Assembly (NCBI GenBank): GCA_024742275.1
Contig: JANSYS010000001.1
Location: 1-64,000 of the forward strand
Length of the DNA: 64,000 nucleotides
Direction: 5' to 3'
Source of the DNA: Alphaproteobacteria bacterium
GTDB taxonomy: Bacteria; Pseudomonadota; Alphaproteobacteria; Thalassobaculales; Thalassobaculaceae
Shown: positions 55,029 through 62,782 of the stretch, piece after piece
Numbering within the stretch: the stretch's first letter is position 1
How the letters are laid out: every line of letters begins with the position of its first letter
Notes under the pieces: model-generated
What the model was told of the DNA's origin: nothing
The model's input: the letters and a program-made list of their open reading frames with translations, nothing else
The model's database searches: none
Program-made: the position numbers and the translations under genes

Positions 55029-55937
55029 ATGACTTGCCGGATGGCCTCTCCCGCTTTGTCCACCTCGGCTCCCGTGACCGCCGCCAGAGCCATCCTTATG
55101 ATGGTGGCGGCCGCCGGCATCCTCACGGTGAACGACGCGATCGCCAAATGGCTGACCGAACGCTACCCGGTGGGTCAGGTTCTGGCGATCCGCGGCATCC
55201 TGGTCGTATCGCTGGTCTACGGCTGGGCCGTGGTTTCGGGCAGGACCTCTGCGTTGCGGGTCAGAAGTTGGAAGCTGAACCTGACGCGCGGCGGCCTGAT
55301 GGCCCTGTCGACCTTCCTGTTCGTCACGTCGTTGTCCCTGATGCCGATCGCCGATGCCATCGCGATCTCGTTTGCCGGCCCCATCTTCGCGACTGCGCTG
55401 GCCGCTCTCATCCTGGCGGAACCTGTCGGATGGCGGCGCTGGAGCGCGGTTGCCGTCGGCTTCGCCGGCGTAGTCGTTATGCTCAGGCCGACGCCGGAGA
55501 TGTTCAGGCTGGTCGCCCTGATCCCAATCGTGGCGGCCTTCGTTGGCGCCTTGCGCGATATCGTCACCCGGAAGATGGGAACCGGCGGGGAATCTACCCT
55601 GATGGTCCTGATCGTATCGACCAGCGTCGTCGCGTTTGCCGGATTGCTCACGCTCCCGTTCGGTTGGGTCGTGCCGACACCTGCGGACCTGGCGCTGTTC
55701 GTTCTCACCTCGGCTCTGGTCGCCGTGGCGCAGGGGTTGATGATCGAGAGCCTGAAACACGGCGAGGTCGGCCTGGTCGGTCCGTTCAAATACACCAGCC
55801 TGTTGTGGGCGATTGTCCTTGGACTGCTTGTTTGGGGAGACGTTCCCGGCCTGTGGACATGGGTCGGCGCCGCGTTGGTCATAGCCAGTGGGCTCTATAT
55901 CTGGCACCGGGAAACCATGGTCAGACGCCGCGACTAG
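55029..55937 (+). CDS. DMT superfamily transporter (EamA)
   Basis: A 302-residue integral membrane protein with ten predicted helices in two EamA repeats (first repeat AILMMVAAAGILTVNDAIAKWL..., second LVALIPIVAAFVGALRDI...). It probably exports metabolites such as amino acids. Divergent from the ABC-F gene with 135 bases between. The start may be 55029 or 55041. It precedes the SAM aptamer region on the same strand, so the riboswitch-controlled gene needs its own promoter. Confidence 0.88.
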   Translation: MTCRMASPALSTSAPVTAARAILMMVAAAGILTVNDAIAKWLTERYPVGQVLAIRGILVVSLVYGWAVVSGRTSALRVRSWKLNLTRGGLMALSTFLFVTSLSLMPIADAIAISFAGPIFATALAALILAEPVGWRRWSAVAVGFAGVVVMLRPTPEMFRLVALIPIVAAFVGALRDIVTRKMGTGGESTLMVLIVSTSVVAFAGLLTLPFGWVVPTPADLALFVLTSALVAVAQGLMIESLKHGEVGLVGPFKYTSLLWAIVLGLLVWGDVPGLWTWVGAALVIASGLYIWHRETMVRRRD

Positions 55938-55988
55938 ACCAACGACCAAAAAAACTTGACCCAGCGTGGCGTCAGCAACATTTTACTG

Positions 55989-56041
55989 ACAGCGCCGATT
56001 TGCTTCCTGCTTGCGGGCGCTTAACAAATGCGGCTAAACGG
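55989..56041 (+). promoter_or_regulatory. SAM-II riboswitch aptamer
   Basis: A 53-base element with the SAM-II layout. P1 pairs AGCGCC (55991-55996) with GGCGCT (56016-56021). The loop contains GATTT (55997-56001), CC and TTGC (56011-56014). The 3' tail has AACAAA (56023-56028) and GCTAAA (56033-56038) followed by CGG, the pseudoknot strand. Order and spacing match the known alphaproteobacterial SAM-II consensus of about 52 bases. It lies upstream of the DmdA-like gene. Confidence 0.85.
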
Positions 56042-56088
56042 ATCGACAAATCCGTCCGGCCGTAACGGCTTTTGGGGCGGTTTTTTTT
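56038..56088 (+). terminator. Antiterminator/intrinsic terminator switch downstream of the SAM-II aptamer
   Basis: CCGTCC (56052-56057) pairs with GGGCGG (56075-56080), followed by eight T residues (56081-56088). The loop contains an inner hairpin GCCG-TAA-CGGC. The competing hairpin pairs ACGGAT (56038-56043), which includes the aptamer's pseudoknot G residues, with ATCCGT (56050-56055), which includes the terminator's 5' strand. The two structures exclude each other. Confidence 0.8.
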
Positions 56089-56128
56089 ATCCGTCGATAC
56101 TGAAACTTGGGCCTGGTCCTCCCCGACG

Positions 56129-56202
56129 GACCCCCGGTGATTTGAGGGGCAGCTTGCTCCGGGTCAACAAAAGCTAAAGCGCTTCGGCACGACCGGCCCC
56201 TC
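56129..56202 (+). promoter_or_regulatory. Second SAM-II/SAM-V-like aptamer
   Basis: P1 pairs GACCC (56129-56133) and GG (56136-56137) with CC (56159-56160) and GGGTC (56161-56165). The loop has GATTT (56139-56143) and TTGC (56154-56157). The tail has AACAAA (56166-56171) and GCTAAA (56173-56178), the same motifs in the same order as the first aptamer. GAGGGGC (56144-56150) can pair with GCCCCTC (56196-56202) as a pseudoknot. A GAGGAG sequence and ATG follow at 56215 and 56228. Confidence 0.65.
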
Positions 56203-56476
56203 GAAGAAACGAATGAGGAGTCCAGAGATGTCGCGCCAAAGACACCAAACATCCGAAAATCGACAGTTCGGCACTGCCGCCCGCTTCAACGGCAGCGAAA
56301 AATTGTCAAAATTGAACAAGAAGTCGCCTACAGAACAAAATAGCGAATTTTGCTCGAATCCGAAGTCTTCGTCGCGCTTTGAACAGACCGATACCGCATC
56401 TCCCTCCAACGATTACTGCGTAGATAAAGAAATGTCGCCCGAACAACGGACGACGCAAGGGAAGGAGAGCGCATCC
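56203..56476 (+). other. Leader or N-terminal extension before the DmdA-like gene
   Basis: After the second aptamer the sequence is lower in GC and has no stop in the frame of the downstream gene. An ATG at 56228 has a good GAGGAG site and would add 83 Ser/Gln/Lys-rich residues without known homology. It is either a real extension, translated under control of the second aptamer, or an untranslated leader. Confidence 0.4.
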
Positions 56477-57664
56477 ATGATCGACCCAGCAGCCACACTT
56501 GCGTGCGCCGACACGCCATCTCCCAGTCTCGTCTTTGGACCGCGAGTGCGCACATCGCCCTATTTCGCGGCAACGAAGCGATGGGGAGCGAGCGCGTTCA
56601 CGATCTACAACCACATGTACATGCCGGTCGCCTATCGCGGCGAAGCCGATTACTGGTCGCTGATTCACGACGTGACAATCTGGGATGTCGCTGCCGAGCG
56701 CCAGGTTGAGATAACGGGAACGGACGCCGCAGCCTTCGTTCAGTACATCACGCCTCGCGACCTATCCAAGATGCAGGCTGGACAGGCGAAATACGTCCTG
56801 CTCTGCGATCACGACGGCGGCGTACTCAACGATCCTGTGCTCCTGAAACTTGCCGACGACCGCTACTGGTTGTCCCTCGCCGACGGCGACCTGCTGCTTT
56901 GGGTCAAAGCACTGGCTCGAGCCGGAGACTGGCGTGTGTCGGTGAGCGAGCCGGACGTCTCTCCGCTGCAGATCCAGGGGCCGAAGGCTGGAACACTGAT
57001 GCAGCGGGTGTTCGGCGACTGGATCGCCGACCTGAAGTACTTCCGCTTCGTTGAGACCGATTTGGACGGCGCCCCGGTCGTGGTCGCCAGAACCGGCTGG
57101 TCCGGAGAGTTCGGGTACGAGATCTTCCTGCGCGACGGTCGCTACGGCGACGCTCTCTGGGAACGGCTGTTCGAGTTGGGATCCGACCTCGGTGTCGCTC
57201 CCGCGGGCCCGAACGCCATCCGTCGGATCGAGGCGGGCCTGCTTTCCTACGGCGCCGACATGACGGCCGAAAACAATCCTTTCGAACTCGGTCTCGACCG
57301 GTTGATCTCCCTGGATCTGGACGTCGACTTCATCGGCAAGGACGCGCTTCGGGAGATAGCCGCCAAGGGGGTGACCCGCCGGCTCGTCGGCATAGAGATT
57401 CTGGGCGATCCGATCCAGGCGAATGTCGAACACTGGACCGCGAGGTTCGGCGGCGAAGGAAATACCGGTTTGGTAACCAGCGCGATCTATTCCCCGCGCC
57501 TGCACCGAAACATCGCGATCGGGTACGCGCCCGAGGGCGATCATATCGTCGGGACGGGCCTAATCGTCGACACGGCGGACGGTCCACGTGCGGCAACCGT
57601 CGTGCCGATGCCGTTCGTCGATCCTGCGAAGGAACTGGCAAAGGGAACCGCCAAAGCCGCCTGA
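56477..57664 (+). CDS. GcvT-fold methyltransferase, DmdA-like
   Basis: A 395-residue tetrahydrofolate-dependent methyltransferase. It has RVRTSPYFAATKRWGASAFTIYNHMYMPV, DVTIWDVAAERQVEITG, YITPRDLSKMQAGQAKYVLLCDHDGGVLNDPV, and TGWSGEFGYEIFLRDG, the pattern of the DMSP-demethylase/aminomethyltransferase group. DmdA proteins demethylate DMSP to methylmercaptopropionate, giving 5-methyl-THF. Close paralogues act on other methylated substrates, so the substrate is not proven. AAGGAG precedes the ATG at 56477. The upstream aptamers indicate SAM repression, fitting a source of methyl groups for methionine. Confidence 0.8.
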   Translation: MIDPAATLACADTPSPSLVFGPRVRTSPYFAATKRWGASAFTIYNHMYMPVAYRGEADYWSLIHDVTIWDVAAERQVEITGTDAAAFVQYITPRDLSKMQAGQAKYVLLCDHDGGVLNDPVLLKLADDRYWLSLADGDLLLWVKALARAGDWRVSVSEPDVSPLQIQGPKAGTLMQRVFGDWIADLKYFRFVETDLDGAPVVVARTGWSGEFGYEIFLRDGRYGDALWERLFELGSDLGVAPAGPNAIRRIEAGLLSYGADMTAENNPFELGLDRLISLDLDVDFIGKDALREIAAKGVTRRLVGIEILGDPIQANVEHWTARFGGEGNTGLVTSAIYSPRLHRNIAIGYAPEGDHIVGTGLIVDTADGPRAATVVPMPFVDPAKELAKGTAKAA

Positions 57665-57816: not shown

Positions 57817-58464
57817 ATGGTGACCGACTACGACAGGATTTTGCGCGGCGACGGACGGGTCTCGAAGGACGGGGCCACCAATGCCGAAAGCTATGACGCC
57901 TGGGCCAGCGACTACGACCGCCAGCTCGCCGACTGGGGGTACGAGGCCCCGACCCGTGCCGCCGGCCTCCTTGCCCGACACCTCGACGGCTTCGCGCAGG
58001 CCCGCGTTCTGGACTGCGGCTGCGGCACGGGAATGACAGGCGCGGCGTTGCGAGACTCAGGCTTCGGCGGACCGATCACCGGTTTCGACATGTCCACCGC
58101 GAGTCTCGAGATCGCCCGCGCCAAGGGCATTTACGCAGACCTTGAGCAGGTCGACCTCAATGCCCCCCTACCGATCGAGGCCGACAGCATGGACGGCATC
58201 CTGTGTGTCGGCGTTCTCACCTACATCGAGGAAGCACCGTTGCTGAAGGAATGGATGCGGGTGCTTCGGCCGGGCGGCGTCGCGGTGTTCACCTGTCGCA
58301 CCGACTTCTGGGAGAGCCGTGGGTTCGAAAAAACACTGACGGACCTGGAAAAGATGGGGACTCTGCGCCGGCTGGAGACCACGCAGCCCCTGCCCTACAT
58401 TCCCGGAAACCCCGAGTTCGGCACCAAAATCCAGATTATCTACGGGGTCGTCGGCTCGATCTGA
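57817..58464 (+). CDS. Class I SAM-dependent methyltransferase
   Basis: A 215-residue Rossmann-fold methyltransferase with SYDAWASDYDRQLADWGYEAPTRAAGLL, motif I VLDCGCGTGMTGAALRDSG, FDMSTASLEIAR, and RPGGVAVFTCRTDFWESRG. It resembles the WBSCR27-like small methyltransferases that act on unknown small molecules. GGGAAG precedes the ATG. Stands alone, 150 bases after the DmdA-like gene and separated from it by the terminator hairpin. Confidence 0.83.
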   Translation: MVTDYDRILRGDGRVSKDGATNAESYDAWASDYDRQLADWGYEAPTRAAGLLARHLDGFAQARVLDCGCGTGMTGAALRDSGFGGPITGFDMSTASLEIARAKGIYADLEQVDLNAPLPIEADSMDGILCVGVLTYIEEAPLLKEWMRVLRPGGVAVFTCRTDFWESRGFEKTLTDLEKMGTLRRLETTQPLPYIPGNPEFGTKIQIIYGVVGSI

Positions 58465-61792: not shown

Positions 61793-61891
61793 GGGCGCAA
61801 TCTGGATCGCCGATCCGGCCTTGCCAAGTGGCGCCGTCTCGATGTCTGCGATTGCCAAGGTCCCGCCGGCGGTCCATTCTGGCGTCTGCCA

Positions 61892-61978
61892 CTTCGGGGG
61901 AGCCGCATTCCGCGGCTGAGAGGTCCGATCGTCGGACGACCCCAGGAACCTGATCCGGTTTGTACCGGCGTAGGGAGC
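61892..61978 (+). promoter_or_regulatory. TPP riboswitch (THI element)
   Basis: The two conserved TPP-binding arms are present: GGGGGAGCC...GGCTGAGAGG (CTGAGA at 61916-61921) and GAACCTGATCCGG (to 61958) with ACCGGCGTAGGGA (61964-61976). A hairpin with GTCCGA and TCGGAC lies between. GGAGG and the thiX ATG follow within 15 bases, so it may control translation start as well as transcription. Confidence 0.95.
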
Positions 61979-61990
61979 AAGGAGGCCTGA

Positions 61991-62782
61991 ATGCGCGCCC
62001 GCGCACCCGACCGTCAGTCCGACCAAACCGCTATCGCCAGCCTGCGGCCGCTTGTCATCGCGGCGGGTCTCGTCTCGGCTTGGCAACTCGTGGTCTGGTT
62101 CAGCGGTGCGCCGCCCTACATCCTTCCCGGCCCGCTGGAGGTTGCACAGACGTGGGTCGAGCGATCGCCGATCATCCTGCGTCACGCCGGCATCACGCTG
62201 TTGGAGATCGTGCTCGGCCTAGCGATCGGCGTCTTGGTCGGGCTGGGAACAGCTGTGTTGCTGTCCGAGTGGCGTCGGCTGCGCCCCTGGCTTCTGCCGG
62301 TGCTGGTGATCAGCCAGGCGATTCCCGTCTTCGCGCTCGCTCCGATCCTGGTCCTATGGCTCGGTTACGGCATGGCGAGCAAGGTCGCCATGGCCGCCCT
62401 CATCATCTTCTTTCCCGTCACCTCCGCCCTGTATGACGGGCTCCGCCGGGTCGACCCGCTGTGGCTCGAAGCCGCGAGATCGCTGGGCTGCACCGGCATA
62501 CGACTGTTTCGACGGGTACGCCTTCCCGCCGCTTTGCCCGCCTTCGCCTCGGGGCTTCGGGTGGCAACGGCCGTGGCGCCGATCGGCGCGGTCGTTGGCG
62601 AATGGGTCGGGTCCTCCGCTGGTCTCGGCTACCTGATGCTGCACGCCAACGCGCGGCTGCAGATCGACCTCATGTTCGCCGCCCTTCTCACCCTCGCCGT
62701 CATGGCGGTGGCGCTCTACGCCGCCGTCGACACCATCCTCAGGCGCGCCGTGGCCTGGCAGCCCGGCGAGGCCAATTCCTGA
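61991..62782 (+). CDS. thiX: Thiamine-precursor ABC transporter permease
   Basis: A 263-residue permease of the TauC/SsuC/ThiX family: helices cover LVIAAGLVSAWQLVVWFSG, ITLLEIVLGLAIGVLVGLGTAVLLS and LPVLVISQAIPVFALAPILVLWLGYG; the EAA loop is EAARSLGCTGIRLFRRVRLPAALPAFASGL. It is the channel part of an importer for a thiamine precursor (a hydroxymethylpyrimidine-type compound), by analogy with ThiXYZ. Directly downstream of the TPP riboswitch. GGAGG precedes the ATG. Confidence 0.92.
   Translation: MRARAPDRQSDQTAIASLRPLVIAAGLVSAWQLVVWFSGAPPYILPGPLEVAQTWVERSPIILRHAGITLLEIVLGLAIGVLVGLGTAVLLSEWRRLRPWLLPVLVISQAIPVFALAPILVLWLGYGMASKVAMAALIIFFPVTSALYDGLRRVDPLWLEAARSLGCTGIRLFRRVRLPAALPAFASGLRVATAVAPIGAVVGEWVGSSAGLGYLMLHANARLQIDLMFAALLTLAVMAVALYAAVDTILRRAVAWQPGEANS

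Follow-up and report, generated by a model that had tools for sequence, protein, structure and literature searches.

The 64,000-nucleotide stretch analyzed here (the window) comes from contig C61 of a marine alphaproteobacterium with a genome of 4.7 Mb. Between an EamA-type transporter gene and a gene for a DmdA-like aminomethyltransferase it holds a leader (55982-56230) that, judged by its sequence, is a tandem pair of SAM-II riboswitches placed before the DmdA-like gene (Table 1). The tandem elements (55982-56058 and 56124-56202) and the terminator between them confirm an observation made in an earlier first-pass annotation of this DNA. That annotation had also called the gene DmdA/GcvT-like, and this much stands: the protein carries GCV_T (175 bits) and GCV_T_C (52.7 bits) domains, and its nearest PDB match is 3tfh (290 bits, vs. 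152 bits for the best GcvT chain), an entry deposited as a GcvT-like protein that we take to be the Pelagibacter DmdA structure. With the DMSP demethylase model PRK12486, an NCBIfam equivalog, it reaches 407.4 bits, 2.6 bits short of the cut-off of 410. By these scores the protein is nearer to DmdA than to GcvT, and we name it DmdA-like, the name DmdA itself being borderline. A class I methyltransferase gene adjoins the 3′ side of the DmdA-like gene, and a TPP riboswitch (61886-61994; RF00059, 68.4 bits) lies farther along, upstream of transporter-like genes.

Table 1. Features of the tandem leader and its surroundings (positions in the window)
Feature	Positions	Strand	Basis or detail
EamA-type transporter gene	55029-55937		upstream of leader
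SAM-II aptamer copy 1 (ordinary type)	55982-56058	+	RF00521 33.1 bits; kept in three relatives
Copy 1 P1	AGCGCC 55991-55996 with GGCGCU 56016-56021	+	6 bp, read from sequence
Copy 1 pseudoknot	UUGC 56011-56014 with GCGG 56030-56033	+	read from sequence
Copy 1 pseudoknot	UCC 56005-56007 with GGA 56040-56042	+	read from sequence
Antiterminator hairpin	56038-56055	+	ACGGAU 56038-56043 with AUCCGU 56050-56055, exact
Intrinsic terminator	56052-56088	+	folds; CCGUCC 56052-56057 with GGGCGG 56075-56080
Terminator inner hairpin and T run	T8 at 56081-56088	+	GCCG-UAA-CGGC, then T8
P0 hairpin, flush with copy 2 P1	56115-56132	+	GGUCC/GGACC; own vs. swapped complementarity, 20 families
SAM-II aptamer copy 2 (enlarged subtype)	56133-56202	+	RF00521 23.9 bits; R1 53.0 bits
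Copy 2 P1	CCCGG 56133-56137 with CCGGG 56159-56163	+	
Copy 2 conserved core	GATTTGA 56139-56145, AGCTTGC 56151-56157, GCTAAAG 56173-56179	+	
Loop strand GAGGGGC, two possible partners	56144-56150	+	sequence
Loop partner, canonical P2b place	GCUUC 56181-56185	+	pairs GGGGC only, two G-U
Loop partner, distal	GCCCCUC 56196-56202	+	7 bp; distal pairing supported across families
Candidate anti-SD GGCCCCUC	56195-56202	+	pairs GAGGAGUC (56215-56222) at 7 of 8 positions
Shine-Dalgarno SD1, GAGGAG	56215-56220	+	sequence; ATG1 at 56228
DmdA-like aminomethyltransferase gene	56228-57664	+	from ATG1, 478 aa
In-frame N-terminal extension	56228-56476	+	83 codons, AT-rich
Second SD and ATG2	56462-56479	+	AAGGAG 56462-56467, ATG2 56477; start in relatives
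Class I methyltransferase gene	57817-58464		just downstream of DmdA-like gene

Close orthologues of the DmdA-like gene were found in the window's own genome and, at 77-84% identity, in three others: Thalassobaculum litoreum DSM 18839 (G002 = L036), a Thalassobaculaceae MAG (G003 = L035), and an alphaproteobacterial MAG (G010 = L037), the nearest relatives by this locus. All four genomes keep both copies, the intervening terminator, and a start codon after copy 2, the aptamer cores are nearly invariant among them, and the leader as a whole is kept in all three relatives. Within the genomes sampled, the association of SAM-II with a DmdA-like gene appears to be confined to this small group of four, because none of the 12 more distant homologues (≤57% identity) has a SAM-II leader that reaches the gathering score; the only positive among the homologues checked at that score, L037, is the same locus as that of G010. 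On these grounds, the idea that SAM-II widely accompanies dmdA-like genes was rejected.

A search of the 64 kb for the motifs in their order, GATTTG-N2..10-GCTTGC-N12..26-GCTAAA, gives two places and no more, 55997-56038 and 56139-56178; 100 shuffles of the window that preserved its dinucleotides gave none. In a search of 701 bases, the Rfam model RF00521 (SAM_alpha) matches copy 1 at 55982-56058 (33.1 bits, E 1.3e-5) and copy 2 at 56124-56198 (23.9 bits, E 0.0041), in agreement with the original claim of two SAM-class aptamers in series. Both scores fall under the gathering score of 36 bits, and for this reason a default Rfam scan lists neither copy; the copy 1 orthologue of G010 exceeds the cut-off at 39.1 bits, and copy 2 scores 22.4-23.9 bits across the four species, below 36 in each. 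The first-pass annotation had likened the leader to SAM-II/SAM-V tandems, and here the covariance models went against a SAM-V partner: SAM-V (RF01826) has no match at E≤10 in 55700-56400, a SAM-V identity for copy 2 was rejected for want of that match, and the pair is SAM-II followed by SAM-II. The variant family of SAM-II with long loops (RF01726; PMC2864571) was rejected likewise, having no match in the genome at E≤1. The genome has SAM-II matches at two further places: on C34 (43.6 bits), where the protein encoded downstream resembles, by eye, a MetY-type sulfhydrylase, and on C55 (33.4 bits), before a CysG gene.

Copy 1 has both the P1 stem and the pseudoknot P2, conserved in the four species. 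The antiterminator described at first pass proved exact, and it overlaps the 3′ strand of the pseudoknot and the 5′ strand of the terminator, sharing bases with each; the terminator, likewise as described, has a G+C-rich stem followed by T8, with equivalents in G002, G003, and G010. A simple terminator scan did not list the terminator at 56052-56088, the stem of which encloses a second hairpin. The minimum-energy fold of the nascent RNA is the antiterminator hairpin in the window, G002, and G003, and when the pseudoknot bases are blocked, the terminator forms in the folds of the window, G002, and G010. The constrained fold of G003 has no terminator, since other bases pair, and is therefore not by itself support for a switch at copy 1. 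When SAM is absent, the ACGGAU strand would pair as the antiterminator and the terminator would be blocked; when SAM is present, the pseudoknot would take up GGA, and the terminator would form. This would be the ordinary OFF logic of SAM-II (PMC1273637, PMC9373788).

Copy 2 has the SAM-II core of GATTTG, GCTTGC, and GCTAAA around a P1 stem, and its stretch from P1 to GCTAAAG is almost unchanged across the four species, the most conserved part of the leader. The claim that both copies share the same motifs, each set with a P1 stem, holds for the stems and for these three motifs but not for AACAAA, which is out of register, copy 2 being shorter there by 2 nt. When the SAM-II matches of the family were compared side by side, they fell into two kinds. 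The ordinary kind, by eye, is usually followed by a terminator and often has a MetY-like gene downstream. The second kind is marked by the series CGCGG..ATTTGA..GGGCAGCTTGC..CCGCG..CCAA..GCTAAAGCGCCACGG-loop-CCGTGGGCCC; tandems have it as their second partner, and it also stands by itself before genes for CysG and CysH. In G030, G033, G006, G017, and G025, other tandems of the family precede an O-succinylhomoserine sulfhydrylase-like gene (one protein tested).

On these sequence comparisons, copy 2 is a member of a distinct SAM-II subtype with extra helices. The subtype has an extra 5′ hairpin, P0, and its typical members add a helix P3 before the distal strand that pairs with the loop, with the anti-SD carried by the 3′ half of P3. 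A strong P3 with an anti-SD so placed is absent from the DmdA leaders: there P3 is reduced to ~4 bp, and the candidate anti-SD is in the distal strand itself, with pairings comparable to GGCCCCUC/GAGGAGUC in G002, G003, and G010. The GAGGAG-ATG noted after copy 2 is where it was reported; this SD lies outside the aptamer, and the strand that may hide it sits between GCTAAAG and the SD.

A covariance model, R1, was built from 18 members with the DmdA leaders left out; the MAFFT alignment A1 displaces P1 in some members, and so the subset A2 was used. With R1, the window's copy 2 reaches 53.0 bits (E 4.5e-8 per genome); at E≤0.01 the model has matches in 116 of the 385 sampled genomes of the class, a figure that is not a count of the subtype, as weaker matches take in ordinary SAM-II. 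Above 50 bits, about 65 listed places in more than 20 families remain (read from the table), and several genomes have two matches within ~250 bases. Strong subtype matches precede cysG, cysH, metZ, metX, and metN in many families, and seven proteins encoded after subtype members were CysG (twice), CysH, MetZ, MetX, a nitrite/sulfite reductase-type protein, and a MetN-like protein that scores under its cut-off. The element before the CysG gene of the window's own genome, L002 (G000:C55:63202-63276), is of the enlarged type, below the Rfam cut-off, and reaches 98.4 bits with R1 as one of its training sequences. The gene after the SAM-II leaders L143, L152, L156, L161, L162, and L164 encodes a protein with the sequence LDGGTGTELEKRGVPMDPGAWCG, which by eye is of the homocysteine S-methyltransferase type; at L160 and L163 the enlarged type is followed by a gene for a small protein (in L160 it reads SLAKTVSWRVTAT), a departure from the methionine and sulfur genes usually found there.

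Each pairing of the subtype was compared between a leader's own strands and partners swapped between families, with one leader drawn per family; several such tests were made, and all assume that families are independent, an assumption that holds only approximately. P0 gave 13.55 for own strands vs. 11.45 for swapped strands (sd 0.55, 0 of 1000 permutations, 20 families), and P3 gave 19.56 vs. 15.93 (0 of 1000), a difference inflated by the placement of P3 with the same score. The loop and the distal strand gave 12.11 vs. 11.0 (1.1% of permutations); for the loop and the canonical strand, which hardly varies, own and swapped pairings did not differ. The 3′ half of P3 pairs with its own SD at -9.30 kcal/mol vs. 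-7.36 with the SDs of other families (0.2% of permutations as good, 17 families), as in CGAACUCCG with CGGAGUUCG or AAUGCUCCG with CGGAGCAUU. A first anti-SD test, drawn mostly from one family (own -9.7, swapped -8.5), was discarded as too weak and confounded by relatedness. In the window, L114, and L116, where P3 and the distal strand could not be placed automatically, the distal strand was read by eye. At the level of sequence, the comparison between families thus supports P0 and P3, the pairing of the loop with the distal strand (distal P2), and the anti-SD in P3 of the subtype. In the divergent leaders L200-L203 (family f71), the loop and canonical strand seem by eye to covary (AU/AU, GU/AC).

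Our main reading, to which we give a probability of about 0.6, is that the tandem leader lowers expression of the gene for the DmdA-like demethylase, an enzyme of the tetrahydrofolate type, when SAM is plentiful, by a terminator step and then an SD step. Copy 1 probably stops transcription, and copy 2 probably blocks translation; we infer SAM as the ligand, both switching steps, and the direction of the second. At that second step, without SAM, the loop UUUGAGGGGC would pair with the distal GCCCCUCGAA, leaving the anti-SD occupied and SD1 open; with SAM, GGGGC of the loop would pair with the canonical GCUUC, and the freed anti-SD GGCCCCUC would pair with SD1. Genes for methionine and sulfur supply are usually repressed by SAM. 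We prefer OFF for copy 2, a plausible direction, because of the genes controlled and because of copy 1; folding is no proof of it, and distal pairing in the SAM-bound form would free the SD. The two-step OFF control proposed at first pass therefore stands as plausible for copy 2, with the qualification that folds in which the distal pairing is made free the SD.

Opening energies of the SD, which ignore pseudoknots and cotranscriptional folding, were computed again with both pairing schemes, and neither scheme was decisive; for G010 the wrong SD was picked, and its value counts neither way. Blocking the loop and the canonical P2b strand raises the cost of opening from 3.4 to 4.9 kcal/mol in the window and from 2.2 to 4.3 kcal/mol in G003; against the OFF model, it lowers the cost from 8.1 to 6.7 in G002, where the SD opens more easily. 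Over 59 leaders, this constraint made the SD harder to open in 30 and easier in 13.

An unlikely reading is one in which copy 1 works as proposed and copy 2 is activated by SAM: the distal P2 strand, together with P3 in typical members, would take the anti-SD away in the bound form and free the SD. The cross-family support for P3 and for the distal pairing (1.1% of permutations) favors this reading over the OFF model, as does the SD being easier to open in 34 of the 59 leaders, and harder in 13, when the distal strand is occupied; a first accessibility run with a similar constraint, the distal strand serving as the bound form, pointed the same way in all four DmdA leaders. On the other hand, the genes tested serve methionine and sulfur supply and would normally be SAM-repressed, activation would run against step 1 of its own leader, the canonical strand CGCC hardly varies, and the covariation seen by eye in f71 is what one would expect if the canonical pairing were the bound form. 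As a long shot, copy 2 could represent an undescribed, widespread SAM-II subclass with its platform within the aptamer (GCUAAAG to distal P2), activated by SAM or responding to another ligand; if so, the tandem leader would combine two opposing or two different signals at one gene.

It seems quite improbable that copy 1 is the sole working switch and copy 2 a degraded or constitutively folded relic. The low RF00521 score of copy 2 (23.9 bits, the lowest), the 2 nt missing between P1 and GCTAAAG, and the weak P3 would fit such a relic, but the same copy is the most conserved stretch of the leader in four species and belongs to a widespread subtype. That copy 2 binds a different ligand from copy 1, so that the leader combines two signals, is highly improbable: the helices of the subtype, and its strand ahead of GCTAAAG, are not those of ordinary SAM-II, and ligand-changed variants are known for another type of SAM riboswitch (PMC10853860), but the SAM-II core of GATTTGA, CTTGC, and GCTAAAG is retained and the genes are of the same kind as for SAM-II.

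The 83-codon extension between the two possible starts of translation recurs in G003 (L115), equal in length and strongly diverged in sequence, and is missing from G002 and G010; ATG1 and ATG2 are 249 nt apart in the window and in G003. Its G+C content is 0.50 in the window and 0.45 in G003, vs. 0.63, and the shuffling chance of its being open is 0.023 and 0.005, respectively, two values that are not independent. Because the extension stays open yet has diverged strongly in these two genomes, the sequence favors translation from ATG1, notwithstanding the second SD before ATG2; that second SD and ATG, 249 nt downstream, might bypass step 2, a point against the preferred reading.

DMSP demethylase removes a methyl group from the algal compound DMSP. 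The leader would tie the level of SAM to a gene resembling that of this demethylase, which takes part in the flow of sulfur and one-carbon units in the sea. One paper reports that the level of DmdA protein in Pelagibacter did not respond to sulfur limitation (PMC5069961), so that SAM control of a demethylase should not be taken for granted. Beyond this gene, many families of alphaproteobacteria have the enlarged SAM-II form, often below the Rfam cut-off and mostly missed by standard RNA searches, ahead of the sulfate-assimilation genes cysG and cysH and of methionine genes, and if it is confirmed, the regulon maps of alphaproteobacteria that carry it need to be redrawn. In a 2014 survey, SAM_alpha was confined to Rhizobiales and Rhodobacterales, and its core target was metY (PMC4239095). 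The literature searched, which included few subscription papers, contained no paper on SAM-II with inserted hairpins or on SAM-II control of dmdA.

SAM-II has been described as one stem and one pseudoknot forming a probable OFF switch (PMC1273637). Both copies resemble that description (RF00521) in P1 and in GATTTG/GCTTGC/GCTAAA, and copy 1 also in its pseudoknot, for which the loop of copy 2 has two possible partners; they lie likewise upstream of methionine and sulfur genes, and copy 1 has the usual terminator platform; they differ in falling below the Rfam cut-off, and copy 2 differs in adding P0 and a distal loop-pairing strand, with P3 in typical members. In the metA leader of Sinorhizobium meliloti (PMC9373788), as here, the SD adjoins the SAM-II aptamer, with AUG1 near and an in-frame AUG2 downstream; translation there starts at AUG2, 74 nt downstream, whereas the longer space of 249 nt described above stays open in two species. 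The SAM-II/SAM-V leader of Pelagibacter bhmT (PMC5069961, PMC11508383) is alike in having a transcription step and then a translation step at a SAM-regulated sulfur gene, but the second copy here is SAM-II-like. Tandems of SAM-II that combine two platforms have a precedent: PMC9481103 gives 44 SAM-II tandems, some with a terminator first and a ribosome-binding-site platform second. Our leader is like these in its two SAM-II aptamers and in the probable order of its platforms, and, relative to the papers searched, what is new here is the dmdA-like target and a second aptamer of the enlarged subtype.
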